Shown: one piece after another, positions 1,183 through 26,059 of the stretch
Layout of the letters: every line of letters starts with the position of its first letter
Position numbering within the stretch: the first letter of the stretch is position 1
DNA from: a virus
Virus record (IMG/VR): IMGVR_UViG_3300013006_000088
Coordinates: 1 to 31,826 of that record
Length of the DNA: 31,826 nucleotides
Reading direction: 5' to 3' (one strand)
Translations under genes and position numbers: made by a program
The notes under the pieces: generated by a model
What the model was told of the DNA's origin: nothing
What the model saw: the letters and a program-made list of their open reading frames with translations, nothing else
The model's database searches: none

Positions 1183-1520
1183 TTGTTATTTCTGACTTTG
1201 AGATCAATCAGGTAGCCGCACCTAACCTACCGCTGTCTCCGTTTGAGTATGACAGGCTGTATGTCGATCAGCTAAACAACGTGCTTCGCCTGTACTTTAA
1301 CAGAGTTGATGCTATTTTGAACCAGCTAAAGACAGATGAGATCATCCCAGCCTTGACTAACTACACAGTGGCAACGTTGCCAAGCGCGGTTACATCTGGC
1401 AAGGGCGCGAGGTCTTTTGTTACTGATGCTTTGGCTCCTGTATTTGGAGCAACCGTTGCGAGTGGTGGCGCTACTGCTACGCCCGTATACTCTGACGGAA
1501 CGAATTGGAAGGTTGGATAA
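1179..1520 (+). CDS. Small tail-associated virion protein (113 aa)
   Basis: The start overlaps the upstream stop (ATGA), indicating translational coupling. The N-terminal half (about residues 20-60) looks helical: FEYDRLYVDQLNNVLRLYF. The C-terminal half ends with a Gly/Ala/Thr-rich module (LPSAVTSGKGARSFVTDALA, then PVYSDGTNWKVG). Similar C-terminal modules are common at the ends of phage tail, fibre and baseplate proteins. The role is probably structural, perhaps as an adaptor in the tail. No enzyme motif is visible. Its stop codon overlaps the next start as TAATG. Confidence 0.65.
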   Translation: MIVISDFEINQVAAPNLPLSPFEYDRLYVDQLNNVLRLYFNRVDAILNQLKTDEIIPALTNYTVATLPSAVTSGKGARSFVTDALAPVFGATVASGGATATPVYSDGTNWKVG

Positions 1521-4500
1521 TGGCATTAGACCCGAACACCGCAGCATCTCTTGCTCAAGCATACGAGCAAGGTGACTTTGACCAAGTAAATAATATCTTG
1601 GGTGGCGGGGGCATTAGTGCAAACGATGTTCAAAGTTACTTTAACTTTAACAAATCTCAGATGTCGGATTTAGGAAGCGCTGGAATTAACTTTGCGCCAG
1701 CTCCTACAGAAATTGATTATTTTGCGCAACAGTTTGCTCCAGATAGTTATGCTGACGTTTTATCTGCTGTATCTGGTGGTGGGGGGTCTGTTTTAGAAGA
1801 TACCTCAACTTTTAATGATAGTGGAGCCACTGCTGTCTACCAACCGCCAGAAACGTCAACTGGGTTCAAGGCTTCTGGAAGCTCTGGTGATTACGAGGTT
1901 GAGCCTCCTCCGCCGGAAGACCCCACAAAAATAACCCCCCCGCCCATCCCTATTCGTACTTTTACGGATACCGTTAAGACCCCTACCGGAATAGCGTCTT
2001 TACCTATTACAAACACGGTGGCTGCGGCTGCAACTACGCCAAATAAACCCTCAGACACAGACATTGTTAAGTTTCTTACTGATAACCCAAAAATAACCGA
2101 TGCAGAAATTGCTAGGATTATGGATAGCACTGGGTTAAGACCAGAAGATATTGCACGAGCCACAAACAGTAAAGTAGAAGATGTAACCGCTAGGTACGAG
2201 GCAGTAACTCCAACTGCGCCCGCTGCACCCGCCGCTCCTACAACTACGCCTGCTAGTGCTGTTACTCCACCAGCAGACACTACTGCCGCATCCGACAAAA
2301 TAAAACAACAAATCCTTGGTCAAGGCATAACCAGCAAATGGTCTGGTGAAGGGTTTGGCTCGGCTGAAGCCAATGCTGCGGATATGGCTAAGATCATGGC
2401 CGGAATCGGTATCACAGACATTAAACAGTTTGGTAGGGTTCCTATTCTTGAACAAGCCGTAGTGAAACAAGGTTACAACGGTCAAGCCGCTCAACAAGAT
2501 GAAGATGGTAACTACTTCATTGTTCAACCTTCTGGTGAGTATGACAGTGAAGGTAATCAGATTTCTACAAGAGTTAATGTAGATCCATCTAAATTAGAAA
2601 AAGTATACGGGACTTACCAAAATTTAAGCGGTAACCCTGAAGAAGTTTCAAGTTTTGTTGCTGTTGACCCATCTAAAGTAATTACAAAAGATGGCGTGTC
2701 AATGGTTCAAACCGGCACTACTTTTGGCAATAAAGAAACTGGTCAAGCTGTACCAAACACTTATAGCGAACGCCAACAAGGAAACTTCTTTGGTGGAACC
2801 TTTGCGGGTAAAGGTAACACTGGCTATGGTGTCCAGTTTGATGCGCAAGGTAACCCCATCTTTTACACACAAGGCGCGTCCTCAAATGACCTAGCCAACA
2901 TCATGAAGGATCTGGGCCCTATTGGGCAGATCGGCTTGGCTATTGCAACTGGTGGTTTATCTATCCCACAGCAGATTGCCGCGAACATGGCAATTCAAGT
3001 GCTCAGTGGTAAGGATATTGGTGATGCCATAAAAAGTGCCGCAATTAGCTTTGCAGGTTCTCAAATTCCCGGCATGGATTTTATGTCAGATGGTGCTTCG
3101 TTTATTAAAGACCTTGGCCTATCACCTGATCTTACAAAAACCTTAACCAGTTCTTTCCAAAATGCCGCAGTCTCTGCTGGTACTGCGTTACTTAGTGGGC
3201 AAGATGTTGGCGAAGCGATGATTCGTGGTGCTACTACTGGCGGTGTTAACGGCGCTGTTAACTCTTTATTAGGTAACATTGAAGGGTTTGGAGATCTAAC
3301 TGCTAACCAAAAGAAAATAGTTACTAATGCCGTAACTGGTGTAATTTCAGGTAAACCTTTAGATCAGATTGTTATTAACAGTGCTATTGCCGCAGCTAAT
3401 AATGCCGTTAAAGAAGCAAAAACAACTAATGTTTCTGACGGTTCAGATGTAATTAGTACATTACAGAATGCTGGATTAACTGAAGATCAATTGGCTGATG
3501 CAAATTTATTTGGAACTGGTGAAAAGTTAACAGTATCTGCTGATGCTCAAGGTATTATTGATGAATTAGCCGCTATTAAACCTGATGAGTTAGCTTTTGT
3601 TGGGCCTGCTTCTGGACTTGGTAGTGCCGCTGCAACGCAAACTGCCGCATTGTTACAACGTGCTGCCGCTACTCCAGCGGGGCAAGAGGCTTTAAGACAG
3701 GCCGCTACTGTTAGTACTACTGTCCGTGATGCACTCATAGCTTCAGGTGTATTTACTGCCGCTGGCTTAACATCTTTTATTGCTGGTAATCAATTAGTAC
3801 CGGCTAAGATTAATACTGTTACTCAAACTACCAACAGTGATTTAGTAAATCAGATTCCTACTGACACTATTGCGGGTATATTAAATAAGACTGTTACACC
3901 CACAACAGCAGTTCAGACCGCAACAGTACAACCTAATACACAAGTAGCTACTACAGCACCAACTACTTATGTAGTACAGCCCGGTGATTACACAGATACC
4001 ACTGAAGTTGTCCAACCTTGGCAGTCAATAAACCCAACAACTCAAGTAGCCCAGCCTGATGCCAGTCGTTTCGCCTCTATGCTTGGAGTAAATGTAGATA
4101 CTGCGACTAATTTATTAAGAATATATCCCTCATTATTTGGTGAGGATGAATCATTTACACCTGCTGATATTGAGAAAATGACGAGTACAGATATTCGTCT
4201 AATGCAGAGTGCTGGTGGTGGAGCAGACGATAATATTATTACTCAGAAACCTTCTAATAATACTGTTGTTGCTAGAGATTCTGAAGGTCAGCCAATTACT
4301 TATGGTGATTTAGTTAATATTATTGGAAGTAATAAAGTTACTACTCAGCCTACTGTTCAAGCTACAACTACAACGCAGCCAACAGTTACAGTAAGTCCAA
4401 CAACATCACCAACTGTAACTACAGAAGCTACAACTTCACCAACCGCAACTACAAGAGCTACAACATCGCCAACTACGTTTATTACTACAGAGGTTACAAC

Positions 4501-5536
4501 TACACCTACTACTTCAACAACTACCAAGCCTACTACTGTTGTTACTACAGAAACTACTCCTACTACTGAAGTTACTACTAAAGTTACTCCTACTACTGAA
4601 ACTACAACTAAACCAACGACAGCAACGCAAACAACTGTTGAGCCAACGACTTCAACTCAAACAACTACAAAACCAACTACGGCTACGCAAACTACAACTA
4701 CGCCAACTGCCGCTACTCAGACTACGACAACTCCAACGACGGCCACGCAAACAACTACAAAACCAACAACTGCGACCCAGACTACAACTACCCCTACAGC
4801 CGCAACGCAGACTACTACTACTCCAACCACAGCTACGCAGACAACAACAACCCCAACTACTGCGACTCAGACAACTACAACTCCGACAACCGCAACTCAA
4901 ACAACGGTTACGCCTACTACAGCAACACAAACTACCACCACTCCAACGACTGCCACCCAGACAACGACTACACCTACAACAGCAACACAAACCACTGTTG
5001 AGCCAACAACTGCTACACAAACAACTACAACGCCTACTCCTACCGTAACAGTTACTCAGACTCCAACTCCAACTGCAACAGTTACTCAAACTCCAACGCC
5101 TACAGCAACAGTTACTCAAACTCCAACAGCAACAGTTACAACGACACCAACCCCAACAACTACGCCAACAGTTACAGTCAAACCAACGGTTACTGTAAAA
5201 CCAACGCAAACTACAACTACACCTGATGTTTCTATGCCTCAGGCACAGGCAACTGCCGCCGCCCTAGGTATTCCTGCCTTGGCTAATGTGTTCTATTACG
5301 GCAAAGAGTTTGGGTCTAAGAAGCAAAAACTTAATGAAAAAGGTGAGTTGATTGATGAGGACTACAAACCCCTAAGTGTTACCAAAGCGGGAGCAGAGGG
5401 AGAACTTATGGAAGAGATTGCCGAAGAGAAGAAAACAAAGGAAAATAACACCGATGACGCACTTGATTTGGTCTTAGGTAAATCCAGTGATTCAATGTCG
5501 TTTGACGACTTACTTAATATTGTGAAGGGAGCCTAA
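1520..5536 (+). CDS. Large Thr/Pro-repeat virion protein (1338 aa)
   Basis: I chose the ATG at 1520. It overlaps the previous stop (TAATG) and has an AAGG ribosome site 7 bases upstream; a TTG at 1505 in frame is less likely. Visible parts, in order: an acidic, Pro-rich N-terminus; a helical module at about residues 178-230 (KITDAEIARIMDSTGLRPED) that recurs in the next gene; a long Gly/Ala/Ser-rich middle with helical stretches such as GPIGQIGLAIATGGLSIPQQ; a Thr-rich tract from about residue 950; 14 tandem 10-residue repeats (consensus TTTTPTTATQ); then shorter TPTPTATVTQ repeats; and a charged C-terminus ending in FDDLLNIVKGA. The Thr/Pro tract would be extended, like a stalk or mucin. The protein is presumably a virion component because of its place in the late operon. 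No enzyme domain is recognised. Fibre stalk and internal ejected protein are both possible. Confidence 0.7.
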   Translation: MALDPNTAASLAQAYEQGDFDQVNNILGGGGISANDVQSYFNFNKSQMSDLGSAGINFAPAPTEIDYFAQQFAPDSYADVLSAVSGGGGSVLEDTSTFNDSGATAVYQPPETSTGFKASGSSGDYEVEPPPPEDPTKITPPPIPIRTFTDTVKTPTGIASLPITNTVAAAATTPNKPSDTDIVKFLTDNPKITDAEIARIMDSTGLRPEDIARATNSKVEDVTARYEAVTPTAPAAPAAPTTTPASAVTPPADTTAASDKIKQQILGQGITSKWSGEGFGSAEANAADMAKIMAGIGITDIKQFGRVPILEQAVVKQGYNGQAAQQDEDGNYFIVQPSGEYDSEGNQISTRVNVDPSKLEKVYGTYQNLSGNPEEVSSFVAVDPSKVITKDGVSMVQTGTTFGNKETGQAVPNTYSERQQGNFFGGTFAGKGNTGYGVQFDAQGNPIFYTQGASSNDLANIMKDLGPIGQIGLAIATGGLSIPQQIAANMAIQVLSGKDIGDAIKSAAISFAGSQIPGMDFMSDGASFIKDLGLSPDLTKTLTSSFQNAAVSAGTALLSGQDVGEAMIRGATTGGVNGAVNSLLGNIEGFGDLTANQKKIVTNAVTGVISGKPLDQIVINSAIAAANNAVKEAKTTNVSDGSDVISTLQNAGLTEDQLADANLFGTGEKLTVSADAQGIIDELAAIKPDELAFVGPASGLGSAAATQTAALLQRAAATPAGQEALRQAATVSTTVRDALIASGVFTAAGLTSFIAGNQLVPAKINTVTQTTNSDLVNQIPTDTIAGILNKTVTPTTAVQTATVQPNTQVATTAPTTYVVQPGDYTDTTEVVQPWQSINPTTQVAQPDASRFASMLGVNVDTATNLLRIYPSLFGEDESFTPADIEKMTSTDIRLMQSAGGGADDNIITQKPSNNTVVARDSEGQPITYGDLVNIIGSNKVTTQPTVQATTTTQPTVTVSPTTSPTVTTEATTSPTATTRATTSPTTFITTEVTTTPTTSTTTKPTTVVTTETTPTTEVTTKVTPTTETTTKPTTATQTTVEPTTSTQTTTKPTTATQTTTTPTAATQTTTTPTTATQTTTKPTTATQTTTTPTAATQTTTTPTTATQTTTTPTTATQTTTTPTTATQTTVTPTTATQTTTTPTTATQTTTTPTTATQTTVEPTTATQTTTTPTPTVTVTQTPTPTATVTQTPTPTATVTQTPTATVTTTPTPTTTPTVTVKPTVTVKPTQTTTTPDVSMPQAQATAAALGIPALANVFYYGKEFGSKKQKLNEKGELIDEDYKPLSVTKAGAEGELMEEIAEEKKTKENNTDDALDLVLGKSSDSMSFDDLLNIVKGA
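4601..5020 (+). repeat. 14 x 30-bp in-frame tandem repeat (10-residue TTTTPTTATQ units)
   Basis: Fourteen consecutive 30-base units each encode ten residues of the form TT(T/V)(T/K/E)PT(T/A)(A/S)TQ. At DNA level the units differ mostly at third codon positions (aca/act/acg/acc), so the protein repeat is better conserved than the DNA. A second, shorter Thr/Pro/Val repeat (TPTPTATVTQ) follows to about 5130. The array lies wholly inside the large virion gene, has no unique spacers and is not CRISPR. Confidence 0.9.
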
Positions 5537-7528: not shown

Positions 7529-9079
7529 ATGAATCTCGTTCAAGTACAAGAGCGTTTAAAGGATATGCCTACACAGGTAATCATGTCCTATGCCAACGGC
7601 ATGAACCCAGAGGTTCCTCCTTATTTGGCTTTAGGTGAACTAAACCGTCGCAAACAGATGGAGCAGAAAGCGGCTCAACCTCCCCAAGGAACTGTTAAAG
7701 AAAACATTGAACAGCAGATGGGTGTAATGCAGTTGCAGGCGGCTAAGCAAAAGCAAATGGCTCAGCAGATGGCACAGCAGGGTGCTGAAGCTCAGATGCC
7801 TGTACCGCCTGGTATTCCTCAACCTCAAGACCAGCCTCAAATGGAAGACTCTGGAGTAGCTGGACTGCCTATGCCAGAGATGAACTTTGGCTCTGGTGGA
7901 ATTGTTGCTTTTGCTAATTTAGAAGGTAATCAACTTGTTGAAGATGAAGAGAAACGTAAGATTCAAAGAATAGCTCTTCAAAATCAAACGAAAGTACCTA
8001 ATCCTATATTGCCAGAGCCTGTAGACCCAGTAGCTGTGTTGTCTCAACGGGCTATGCAAGCTCCTGAAGAACTGCCAAATCGTGAAGCTATGATGGCTGA
8101 AGCGGTTAAGACAGATCCTTATCTTAATAAGATGCCTGGCCAAAAACTAGAGACTGGCATTGCTGGTCTTCGTCAGGGTTATGGAAAACAGCAAGAAACT
8201 TTTGATAAGAATGAGGAAGCAGCAGCTCGTGCGGCTTTGTGGAAAGGTTTGATTGAAGGCGGTGAGTCTACTCGTGGCATTAGAGGCGGTGGTCTTAGAG
8301 GCTTGGGTACTGGTGCTGGTAAGTCTTTCCTTGAGTCTATGGAAGGCGCTCGTACTCGTGAGATGGCTCAGCAAAACTTAGTCAATGAGCGTAACTTCAA
8401 CCTTACTAAGATGGAAGATGAGTTGGAGAAGTCTCGCATTGCTACCTCACAGGGTCGCTTTAACGATGCTTACAACGCTAAGATCAAGGCAGCTGAGTTC
8501 AAACAAAATGCTCAGAAGAATGCTAATGATTTGCTTGGTACAAGTGCTCAGATTAAAGGTCGTTCTGATCTTGAGAAAGATCGTCAACTCTTTGAAGCTG
8601 GTGAAGGTGTTAAGAAGCGCGACTTTGAGGCTGGTGAAAACACTAAGAGGTATGCTAATGATGTGGCACTGGAAAAGATTCGTCAATCTGCTCCGCCAGC
8701 AATGGTTAAGGAGTTTGATGACTATATTAAACGAGCTAAAACAGATCCTTCTAATGCAAACAAAACTGATTACGAACTGTATAAGCAGTGGGCTGAAGAC
8801 AAGCAGGGTACAACACCAGAGTTGAAACGTGCGGCCTTAATTCAAAAAGCCATAGACTCTTATGGTAAGTTAGATATCATGGCTGAGAAGCGTCTTGCTG
8901 CGCAAGGAATTGATACGGTTGAAAAGTACATTGATTTCTATGTCAGCAAATCAGGTAAAGTAAATGAAGGCAGTGGAGATACACCACCTATTAGTGCTTT
9001 GAAAGAAGGTGAGAAAACAACCTTTGCAAATGGACAAGTCTGGACATTAGAAAACGGCAAACCAAAACAGGTGAAATAA
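7529..9079 (+). CDS. Helical internal-virion-like protein (516 aa)
   Basis: The N-terminus (VQERLKDMPTQVIMSYANGM, then NPEVPPYLALGELNRRKQME) matches a conserved opening I recognise from aquatic phage proteins next to polyvalent ejection proteins. It is followed by Gln-rich helix (60-110), a Pro-rich bend, and long charged helix (about 270-400). A Gly-rich stretch, GGGLRGLGTGAGKSFLES, lies at about 255-272; its GAGKS resembles a Walker A core by chance, with no Walker B. Residues 340-370 carry a GEGVKKRDFEAGENTKR-type near-repeat. An ejected core protein is the most plausible role. It is separated from the next gene by one base. Confidence 0.65.
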   Translation: MNLVQVQERLKDMPTQVIMSYANGMNPEVPPYLALGELNRRKQMEQKAAQPPQGTVKENIEQQMGVMQLQAAKQKQMAQQMAQQGAEAQMPVPPGIPQPQDQPQMEDSGVAGLPMPEMNFGSGGIVAFANLEGNQLVEDEEKRKIQRIALQNQTKVPNPILPEPVDPVAVLSQRAMQAPEELPNREAMMAEAVKTDPYLNKMPGQKLETGIAGLRQGYGKQQETFDKNEEAAARAALWKGLIEGGESTRGIRGGGLRGLGTGAGKSFLESMEGARTREMAQQNLVNERNFNLTKMEDELEKSRIATSQGRFNDAYNAKIKAAEFKQNAQKNANDLLGTSAQIKGRSDLEKDRQLFEAGEGVKKRDFEAGENTKRYANDVALEKIRQSAPPAMVKEFDDYIKRAKTDPSNANKTDYELYKQWAEDKQGTTPELKRAALIQKAIDSYGKLDIMAEKRLAAQGIDTVEKYIDFYVSKSGKVNEGSGDTPPISALKEGEKTTFANGQVWTLENGKPKQVK

Positions 9080-23761: not shown

Positions 23762-24553
23762 ATGTTATTAGATATTTCAAAACTAGATTTCAATTGCGAC
23801 ACACAAGTTCGAGTAGAAGTTGTTGAGGAGACTGTTGAAGACTATGCATACAAGATGGAAAAAGGGGTTGAGTTCACTCCGATTGATGTCTTCCACGATG
23901 GCTTGATCTACATTCCAGTCGATGGCTTTCACCGCATCTTGGCGGCTCAACGCTTGGGTCGTCAGAAGATCGAAGCAACGATCATCAAGGGAACTAAACG
24001 AGCCGCTTGGTTGTACGCAAGGAAACACGCCAACAGTAAGAATGGTATGCGTTTAACCAACGCAGACAAGCGCAAGAAAGTCAATGACTACTTGCAAGAC
24101 TATGAGTGTATGTTTTGGACAGACGCTAAGATTGCAATTGAGGCTGATGTCTCCCTTCCATTTGTCACTCGTATGCGTGGTGGCAATAAGCCTGAGAAGA
24201 TTATTGTTGAGCGCAATGGCAAAACATTCGAGCGCAAGGGTAAGAATAAGGCTAAGCTAGAGAATGTAGTTGAAGCACCGATTGAGAAGGATGATCCTCG
24301 TGATGATGTGATCAAACACCTGGCAGAAGAGAATGAGAAACTCAAGGATCAGATGATCATTGGTGCTATCGATGACACTGGCGAACAACAGACTGCATCA
24401 GAGTTAATTGAAGAACTTCGCAAAGAGAATCAGATCTTGTCTAACCAGTTGAACACAGTGAAGATCAGTCGAGACACACTCATGAATGAGAATGCTCAAC
24501 TGAAGAAACAAGTCGCTGTACTTCAACGCAAACTAAAGAGCTTGGAGTCATGA
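23762..24553 (+). CDS. ParB/sulfiredoxin-fold protein with coiled-coil tail (263 aa)
   Basis: The N-terminal domain (1-85) has the ParB N-terminal pattern: IPVDGFHRILAAQRLG (DGFHR at 54-58), after a strand-rich start. A helical middle holds LTNADKRKKVNDYLQD and SLPFVTRMRGG, resembling a helix-turn-helix. Residues about 190-263 are a coiled coil (LIEELRKENQILSNQLNTVK). Phage proteins of this type often sit beside DNA methyltransferases and may nick DNA or act in modification or host takeover. The stop overlaps the methyltransferase start (ATGA). Confidence 0.8.
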   Translation: MLLDISKLDFNCDTQVRVEVVEETVEDYAYKMEKGVEFTPIDVFHDGLIYIPVDGFHRILAAQRLGRQKIEATIIKGTKRAAWLYARKHANSKNGMRLTNADKRKKVNDYLQDYECMFWTDAKIAIEADVSLPFVTRMRGGNKPEKIIVERNGKTFERKGKNKAKLENVVEAPIEKDDPRDDVIKHLAEENEKLKDQMIIGAIDDTGEQQTASELIEELRKENQILSNQLNTVKISRDTLMNENAQLKKQVAVLQRKLKSLES

Positions 24554-25647
24554 ATGAGTTGGCTTTATTCGCGGGTGCTGGTGGAGGCATACTTGGAGGC
24601 CACCTCCTCGGATGGCGTACAGTCTGTGCAGTCGAGTGGGAAGAGTATCCCGCAAGCATATTGTGCGCCCGACAAAATGATTACCTTCTCCCGCCTTTCC
24701 CGATTTGGGATGATGTGTGCTCCTTTGACGGAACTCCTTGGCGAGGAATTGTCGATGTCATCAGTGGTGGATTTCCATGTCAGGACATTAGTGCCGCAGG
24801 AAAGGGAGTCGGCATTGATGGAGAGCGAAGTGGAATGTGGGGAGAAATGGCGAGGATCATTCACGAAGTTCGACCCCGATACGTCTTCGTGGAAAACTCA
24901 CCAATGCTCACTAGCAGGGGACTTGGACGAGTACTTGGAGACTTGGCCTCAATGGGGTTTGATGCGCGGTGGGGAGTGTTGGGAGCAGCAGACATTGGCG
25001 CAAACCATCAGAGGGACAGGATCTGGATTGTCGCCAAATGGCGTGGACAGCTTCCACACGCCCAACACCACAGGATTAGATGGTGGGAGCAACAGCAGGA
25101 AAGCATTGCGAGGTCGCATGGAGAAGCTTCCTACTCCGACTGCATCGGATCACAGATCACAACCAACGAGCAAGAGTTGGAAGGCGAAGGGGGCAATCAA
25201 CTACAAGCTGAGCAACCCAGAGATCCAAGCCAAGTGGCCAACGCCTCAGAGCAGGGACTACAAGGGGAGCAGTGGTCGCAGTTTGAAGGGGATGGAGACA
25301 GATCTACCGACCAAGGTGAAGCAATGGCCAACGCCCGATGCGAACTGCGGGATCAGGGGGACTCAGCCGAACTGGGTGCCAGTAAGGAAGTCGGGGCAAC
25401 CTGCTCAGTACTCGATCAATCAGGCGGTGAGGGACAGTCTTTACCCTACCCCATGCTCGACGGACTACAAGGGTTCGGGGAAGAATGGGGATCTGAGGGA
25501 CAGACTGGACTATGCGGTGGAGAGGGGGGCAACGAAGAGCAAGACTTATTCGCAACCTCCTCCAAGCGGGGGGCAACTCAATCCAAGTTGGGTGGAATGG
25601 CTCATGGGATGGCCTATAAATTGGACGAGTCTGGAGGCAATAAATGA
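24550..25647 (+). CDS. C5-cytosine DNA methyltransferase, lacking its last conserved motif (365 aa)
   Basis: Motif I LFAGAGGGILGG (6-17), catalytic C77 in GGFPCQDISAAGKG, motif VI YVFVENSP (ENS at 115-117) and motif VIII QRDRIW (154-159) are all present, so it methylates cytosine at C5 using SAM. From about residue 165 the protein is hydrophilic and rich in Gln, Glu and Gly (VANASEQGLQGEQ, MANARCELRDQG), the variable recognition part. It ends LGGMAHGMAYKLDESGGNK without the usual RLKAIGNGQVP motif. That motif appears downstream at about 25980-26028 in another frame, after an HNH gene. Whether the protein is active without it is unclear. The whole gene is overlapped by a second open frame. Confidence 0.85.
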   Translation: MNELALFAGAGGGILGGHLLGWRTVCAVEWEEYPASILCARQNDYLLPPFPIWDDVCSFDGTPWRGIVDVISGGFPCQDISAAGKGVGIDGERSGMWGEMARIIHEVRPRYVFVENSPMLTSRGLGRVLGDLASMGFDARWGVLGAADIGANHQRDRIWIVAKWRGQLPHAQHHRIRWWEQQQESIARSHGEASYSDCIGSQITTNEQELEGEGGNQLQAEQPRDPSQVANASEQGLQGEQWSQFEGDGDRSTDQGEAMANARCELRDQGDSAELGASKEVGATCSVLDQSGGEGQSLPYPMLDGLQGFGEEWGSEGQTGLCGGEGGNEEQDLFATSSKRGATQSKLGGMAHGMAYKLDESGGNK

Positions 25648-26059
25648 AATTGAATTCTGGTCGGAAGCAAGCACAAAGGCTTTTCAAAGCATTGATATGT
25701 CATATCTGTGGTGGGGAACAGACCCTTCACAGACACCATTTAGACCACAATCCTTTGAACAACGATCCGATGAACATTCAGATTTTATGTGTTCATTGCC
25801 ACAACAAGGAACATCGGAAGCTGAAGCCAGTTCCATGTCAGATATGCAAGAAGGAATTCCAACCGAAGAGGGCGAGGAATTCCAAGATATGCAGTTCACC
25901 GTGTTTAAAGGAGATGGGCAGACTTTCTGCTATGAAACGATGGTCATCCCCAGAGTTGCGACTGAGATAACAGCAAGAGTTGACCGCTTGAAGGCAATCG
26001 GAAATGGACAAGTCCCATTGTGTGCAAGTCAAGCCTTTAGAATCTTAAATCGTAGGTAA
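24554..26059 (+). CDS. Overlapping +1-frame protein: SSWKT/WPTP type, ending in methyltransferase motif GNGQVP (501 aa)
   Basis: This frame is open for 501 codons on the same strand as the methyltransferase. Its ATG is 4 bases after the methyltransferase ATG, at a better distance (6 bases) from GGAG. It carries strings I recognise from phage proteins annotated near Dcm genes: DFHVRTLVPQERE (73-85), KFDPDTSSWKTHQCSL (105-120), repeated WPTP/LPTP/YPTP blocks each followed by D(Y/H)(K/R), and GGQLNPSWVEWLMGWPINWT. The last 40 residues (RVDRLKAIGNGQVPLCASQA) are the methyltransferase's own C-terminal motif. Residues 375-445 lie opposite the HNH gene and look out of frame. It may be a true overprinted gene, or a passive frame fused to the displaced C-terminus. 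Confidence 0.5.
   Translation: MSWLYSRVLVEAYLEATSSDGVQSVQSSGKSIPQAYCAPDKMITFSRLSRFGMMCAPLTELLGEELSMSSVVDFHVRTLVPQERESALMESEVECGEKWRGSFTKFDPDTSSWKTHQCSLAGDLDEYLETWPQWGLMRGGECWEQQTLAQTIRGTGSGLSPNGVDSFHTPNTTGLDGGSNSRKALRGRMEKLPTPTASDHRSQPTSKSWKAKGAINYKLSNPEIQAKWPTPQSRDYKGSSGRSLKGMETDLPTKVKQWPTPDANCGIRGTQPNWVPVRKSGQPAQYSINQAVRDSLYPTPCSTDYKGSGKNGDLRDRLDYAVERGATKSKTYSQPPPSGGQLNPSWVEWLMGWPINWTSLEAINEIEFWSEASTKAFQSIDMSYLWWGTDPSQTPFRPQSFEQRSDEHSDFMCSLPQQGTSEAEASSMSDMQEGIPTEEGEEFQDMQFTVFKGDGQTFCYETMVIPRVATEITARVDRLKAIGNGQVPLCASQAFRILNRR
25644..25970 (+). CDS. HNH endonuclease inserted in the methyltransferase gene (108 aa)
   Basis: ATG overlaps the methyltransferase stop (ATGA). HNH core: CHICGG, HRHHLDHNPLNNDPMNIQ, CVHCHNKEH (residues about 19-53), with two CxxC zinc pairs. 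A second small zinc-like unit follows (CQICKKEF ... KICSSPC) and then GRLSAMKRW. This is the layout of free-standing phage homing endonucleases. It lies exactly between the methyltransferase body and its displaced last motif and overlaps the latter by some 25 bases. That suggests it invaded the gene; there is little room for a self-splicing intron. Confidence 0.8.
   Translation: MKLNSGRKQAQRLFKALICHICGGEQTLHRHHLDHNPLNNDPMNIQILCVHCHNKEHRKLKPVPCQICKKEFQPKRARNSKICSSPCLKEMGRLSAMKRWSSPELRLR

Follow-up and report, generated by a model that had tools for sequence, protein, structure and literature searches.

The window analysed here, an IMG/VR virus record of 31.8 kb (IMGVR_UViG_3300013006_000088), raises the question of whether two long frames lying almost entirely on top of each other on one strand can both be genes, and what they would encode together. 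Frame 1, hereafter alpha, extends from 24550 to 25647 on the + strand (365 aa) and frame +1, hereafter frame 2 or beta, from 24554 to 26059 (+ strand, 501 aa), with 1094 nt in common. A sequence-only reading had drawn attention to this pair and had quoted strings that correspond base for base between the frames (e.g. GFPCQDIS and DFHVRTLV); the extent of the two frames and these correspondences are borne out here. The same reading had considered that frame 2 arose by overprinting of the methyltransferase in frame 1, or that it is a phantom family produced by the codon pattern of the latter. We consider it likely (probability of roughly 0.8) that the locus represents a single cytosine-C5 DNA methyltransferase, made as two polypeptides from the overlapping frames.

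Organization of the locus

Alpha matches the Pfam family DNA_methylase (PF00145, E = 4.7e-31) and phrog_363 (E = 2e-59), and the C5 motifs I (24565), IV (PCQ, 24766), VI (ENS, 24880–24903) and VIII (25009–25035), read directly from the + strand, are all carried by this one chain, which has no motif X in the window. For beta, the matching PHROG family is 1008 (E = 5.4e-37), labelled ‘DNA methyltransferase’. Beta comprises, on the + strand, four WPTP-type recognition modules (25127–25576, starting at 25127, 25235, 25325 and 25442), a putative motif IX (LNPSWVEWLMGWP, 25577–25615), identified by position and pattern, and, in its last approximately 40 aa (RVDRLKAIGNGQVPLCASQAFRIL), methyltransferase motif X, a segment matched by phrog_363, alpha's own PHROG family. 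The motif X core, RLKAIGNGQVP (25985–26017, + strand), is read in the beta frame here and in frame 1 in most relatives. A third frame holds a probable HNH endonuclease ORF of 108 aa (25644–25970, + strand), located entirely within beta, with an ATG that overlaps the alpha stop codon. This ORF, the motif X at the beta C-terminus and the presence of LNPSWVEWLMGWP at the place of motif IX had escaped the sequence-only reading.

A Shine-Dalgarno-like GGAG (24544–24547, + strand) precedes the alpha ATG by 2 nt and the beta ATG, noted earlier to lie 4 bases after the first, by 6 nt; the median spacing in relatives is 5 nt for alpha and 9 nt for beta. Immediately upstream, the end of a ParB-like gene (phrog_1033, 23762–24553) shares an ATGA with the start of alpha, and translation of alpha and beta may be coupled to this gene. 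Elsewhere in the window, two long ORFs without PHROG match (1505–5536, 1343 aa; 7529–9079, 516 aa) lie beside a virion structural gene (145–1182).

Frame 2 is a gene

All three frames were examined in about 160 IMG/VR loci, in annotated phages and in 80 loci taken from the genomes of bacteria belonging to many phyla. Among the 128 unique viral loci, 116 were classifiable by motif patterns, and in each of these beta runs without interruption from the ATG as far as motif IX; 43 of them were found by a frame-1 query and hence carry no bias toward frame 2. The beta ATG, 4 nt after the usual alpha start, is kept in 120 of 120 relatives because the second codon of alpha (Asn2) is invariably AAT (120/120), a codon that accounts for 41% of the Asn codons elsewhere in the same genes. 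Beta begins with MSW in all 137 members of a wider set, and the first codon of alpha varies among relatives (ATG, TTG, GTG or an upstream start).

Selection was assessed by pairwise counts and permutations. When the synonymous codons of frame 1 were permuted within each of 95 genes, 261±12 stops were expected in frame 2 before motif VIII, and none was seen; the third frame contained 782 stops versus 633 in the null. Conversely, permutation of the synonymous codons of frame 2 led to an expectation of 435±12 frame-1 stops after motif VIII, against none seen. These 95 genes had to have both ends recognisable, and the broken copies (L194, L233, L239 and L264) were counted separately. The expected frame-2 stops are spread along the stretch from the first codons onward, an argument for initiation of beta at its own ATG and against a downstream start. 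Stops are thus excluded from both frames, and each frame shows more constraint than the other would impose on it, far beyond chance: the two families, found on the same DNA, behave as a dual-coding pair, and frame 2 is a real gene. Frame 2 is under selection and seldom interrupted in relatives, the two points on which the sequence-only reading had made the status of this frame depend.

The conserved frame changes at motif VIII

The distribution of differences over frame-1 codon positions, in DNA pairs, indicates which frame is coding along the locus. Before motif VIII, the rates at the first, second and third positions (0.074/0.038/0.181) are those of a coding frame 1, a pattern found in 43 of 43 pairs. 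Between motifs VIII and IX they become 0.312/0.131/0.110, as expected for a coding frame 2, the third position of which is the first of frame 1, and this pattern after motif VIII holds in 36 of 37 pairs. From IX to X, the values (0.124/0.043/0.169) correspond to both frames coding. Past motif VIII, frame 2 is accordingly the conserved coding frame and frame 1, though stop-free, is filler.

Upstream of motif VIII, synonymous variability falls to 0.38 of the gene-wide level in codons 41–62 and 0.34 in codons 99–140, and is higher in codons 8–40 (0.59) and 63–98 (0.70); the comparison of codons 96–150 with codons 8–95 gives p = 0.0009, without phylogenetic correction. This low variability suggests that part of the N-terminal half of beta is probably also under constraint.

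The proposal of overprinting therefore stands for the N-terminal half of beta only, since the roles of the two frames are reversed from motif VIII onward. Indeed, the correspondence of VANASEQGLQG with WPTPQSRDYKG, which had been taken along with the others, runs in the reverse direction, VANASEQGLQG being the shadow of WPTPQSRDYKG. As for a phantom frame 2, a by-product of the conserved methyltransferase codon pattern, it is true that frame-1 motifs are mirrored by the frame-2 strings upstream of motif VIII, and that these strings recur, with stops, in the single-chain enzyme of mycobacteriophage ShiLan, but the lack of stops under permutation and the change of conserved frame at motif VIII rule this explanation out for practical purposes.

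Beta carries the recognition region and motif IX

In the single-chain enzymes of the mycobacteriophages ShiLan (gp70) and prophi104-2 (gp17), motifs I–VIII, LPTP modules, the motif IX string and motif X follow each other in one frame, and the beta profile aligns to exactly the recognition–IX region of both (E = 7.7e-8 and 8.5e-7, respectively), the modules of beta being homologous to the in-frame region of these enzymes. In TaylorSipht, two adjacent frames share the enzyme, gp40 holding motifs I–VIII and gp41 the recognition region, IX and X. The second protein, previously viewed as a separate family, is thus most likely the missing half of the same enzyme. It is very improbable that frame 2 encodes an unrelated phage protein overprinted on the methyltransferase: the N-terminal half of beta does lie over the conserved catalytic region, with no relatives outside this overlap, as such a protein might, but the C-terminal half is homologous to the recognition–IX region of single-chain methyltransferases and is read in the conserved frame, and frame 1 offers no separate recognition domain after motif VIII.

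Programmed +1 frameshifting from alpha into the beta frame after motif VIII, which would yield one chain, also appears improbable. A +1 switch does give a complete motif order in the window, in L170 (described below) and in TaylorSipht; however, motif X lies in frame 1 in most relatives, for which a second shift would be needed, and frame 2 is stop-free from its first codons, upstream of any such site, behind an invariant ATG.

The recognition region of beta consists of one to four modules (four in the window), each of about 30–45 aa with WPTP at its start. We found 87 module orders among 132 beta sequences, with the same module at different places; the modules are exchangeable and are shuffled between phages. 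As they lie in an overlapping frame, each exchange must keep two frames open. The string that follows, LNPxWVEWLMGWP, is the candidate motif IX, its resemblance to the classical LTPRE...GFP being read from pattern and position. Neither in beta nor in a joined alpha–beta chain does Pfam detect motif IX, a PDB sequence search with beta gave no match below E = 0.13, and AlphaFold models of beta alone and of the joined chain reached a mean pLDDT of about 52 each, too low to be informative.

In ShiLan, prophi104-2 and Derg (L164 2730–3899, L165 1335–2585 and L255 1417–2802), LPTP modules are also present in the +1 frame right after motif VIII, upstream of the in-frame modules. These could possibly be remnants of an overlapping ancestor; if so, the single-chain form may have been derived from it.

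An insertion with a probable HNH gene placed motif X in the beta frame

Motif X of uninterrupted relatives belongs to frame 1 and follows the frame-2 string WVEWLMG at a distance of 38 nt. Motifs I–VIII and X are thus on one chain and IX on the other in 112 viral relatives, a division from which the window differs by having X on beta. Compared with its sister L082, the window contains 358 additional bases (25615–25972, + strand), with mismatches crowded at both junctions, like co-conversion tracts, and near identity farther out. The distribution of mismatches is the mark of homing with co-conversion, and the two sequences represent an occupied and an empty site in near-identical relatives. The length of the insertion is 1 mod 3 and the HNH ORF is stop-free in the beta frame; consequently, beta reads through and carries motif X, which is cut off from alpha, left with motifs I–VIII.

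The HNH ORF scores 17.5 bits against Pfam HNH (cut-off 21.4) and matches PHROG HNH families (best E = 5.5e-7). A surrounding group I or II intron was considered and rejected, as there was no Rfam match and an ORF of 327 nt in 358 nt leaves no room for one.

Three further loci bear an HNH gene or derive from one (L168, on the L085 contig, L169 and L170), and motif X is in the beta frame in all of them. No stop interrupts the beta frame across the HNH ORF of the window, of L168 or of L169; for the HNH proteins encoded there, 7.3, 5.8 and 7.6 stops, respectively, would be expected (P = 0.0005, 0.001 and <0.001); these proteins are about half identical and share a common site, so the loci are not fully independent. 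In L170, most of the HNH gene has been lost and motif IX is still joined to X in the beta frame.

The fate of frame 1 mostly follows the position of motif X. With X on alpha, frame 1 is open through the recognition region in 112 viral and 47 genomic loci, with two genomic exceptions; with X on beta, it contains stops after motif VIII in L085, L170, L213, L218 and L236, and is still open in the window. Most simply, then, the out-of-frame reading of the recognition region by alpha is kept in order to reach motif X.

The alternative that retains the most weight, though we judge it unlikely, is that the HNH insertion inactivated the methyltransferase in this phage and that the 501-codon frame is a remnant. 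Indeed, alpha lacks motif X, its conserved C-terminal string is changed and the insertion looks recent. Yet beta has remained free of stops across the HNH gene in three loci where six to seven would be expected in each, L170 has maintained the junction of IX to X after most of that gene had gone, and other loci with X in beta exist (L213 and L218). A functional split enzyme in the window remains our preferred reading. A more tentative idea, to which we give somewhat less than even odds, is that the HNH gene has been selected to be stop-free in the host frame and is translated as a linker of beta. It would then be a dual-coding homing element that spares its host without the splicing of an intron or intein, and by which a motif of the catalytic domain passes from subunit to subunit.

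A proposed methyltransferase in two chains

According to the arrangement proposed here, ribosomes would initiate at either of two ATGs, 4 nt apart and served by a single Shine-Dalgarno site. Alpha would supply the catalytic large domain with motifs I–VIII and the cofactor site, and in most relatives also motif X, by way of its out-of-frame reading; beta, from its own ATG, would contribute motif IX and the modules for target recognition. Both chains are predicted to assemble into an active enzyme whose set of beta modules would pick the sequences to be methylated, and methylation would presumably protect the DNA of the phage against restriction. The insertion with the HNH gene lies, in this phage, between motifs IX and X.

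Multispecific phage C5 methyltransferases of the SPR and phi3T type carry several exchangeable recognition modules on a single chain. The modules of beta are alike in being exchangeable, but lie in a separate, overlapping frame, and their shuffling must keep two frames open. A second point of comparison is M.EcoHK31I, whose small chain is reportedly translated, likewise, from another reading frame within the gene of the large chain. This two-polypeptide C5 enzyme (YGGCCR) has motifs I–VIII and X on the larger chain and IX on the smaller (PMC3404938), the division seen in most relatives here. However, its recognition domain is predicted in the large chain, and is found in beta here; the start of beta, moreover, lies 4 nt downstream of that of alpha, almost all of which beta overlaps, and X is on beta in the window. 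In M.AquI (two-polypeptide, CYCGRG), the small chain has a distal variable region with motifs IX and X (PMC3404938), like beta of the window, L170, L213 and L218, and like TaylorSipht gp41; a near-complete overlap is not described for M.AquI in that paper, and most relatives here keep X on alpha. Finally, nrdA of phage Aeh1 is split by the HNH endonuclease gene mobE and the enzyme stays functional as two chains, and the T4 mobE start overlaps the stop of the preceding gene (PMC2988022). In the present case, two chains existed before the insertion, which shifts a motif from one to the other and whose HNH gene is read through in the beta frame.

No description of this overlap was found in the literature searched; as far as that literature shows, the near-complete overlap, the shuffling of recognition modules in beta under a two-frame constraint, the breadth of the distribution and the transfer of motif X by an HNH insertion are new. 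Overlap on the same strand over about 1.1 kb, the greater part of both genes, becomes testable in a single enzyme with two halves that have to match each other, across more than 100 phage lineages and in prophages, and module shuffling with two frames kept open is a striking constraint. The split enzyme also accounts for a phage protein family that databases label as a ‘hypothetical protein’ or ‘DNA methyltransferase’, and without beta it is probably impossible to predict the specificity with which these phages methylate.

Occurrence and annotation of the overlapping pair

The overlapping pair is widespread in phages, prophages and plasmids; one copy belongs to a prophage of Escherichia coli strain PT62. 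Public records annotate one frame and miss the other: beta is the annotated frame in Alfacinha3 (gp46, ‘cytosine-specific methyltransferase’; L252 1409–2575) and Pseudomonas phage phPA-G (L162 3001–3729), and alpha in Acinetobacter phage ABMM1 (L163 2997–3911) and E. coli PT62 (L263 801–1538, WP_230069165.1).

A few copies are broken. L194 and L233 have a stop in alpha before motif X. L264 (801–1562, E. coli PCP07014), annotated as a pseudogene, has closely placed stops in both frames. In L239 (3000–4000, a Gallionella prophage), a frame shift within the catalytic region makes alpha and beta both change frame, and this locus is either a decayed copy or an assembly error.

Escherichia phage ESSI2_ev129 (L262 1032–2042) has a very different alpha with the same +1 beta, including WPTP modules and the motif IX string; the overlap may accordingly be older or wider than this methyltransferase family.
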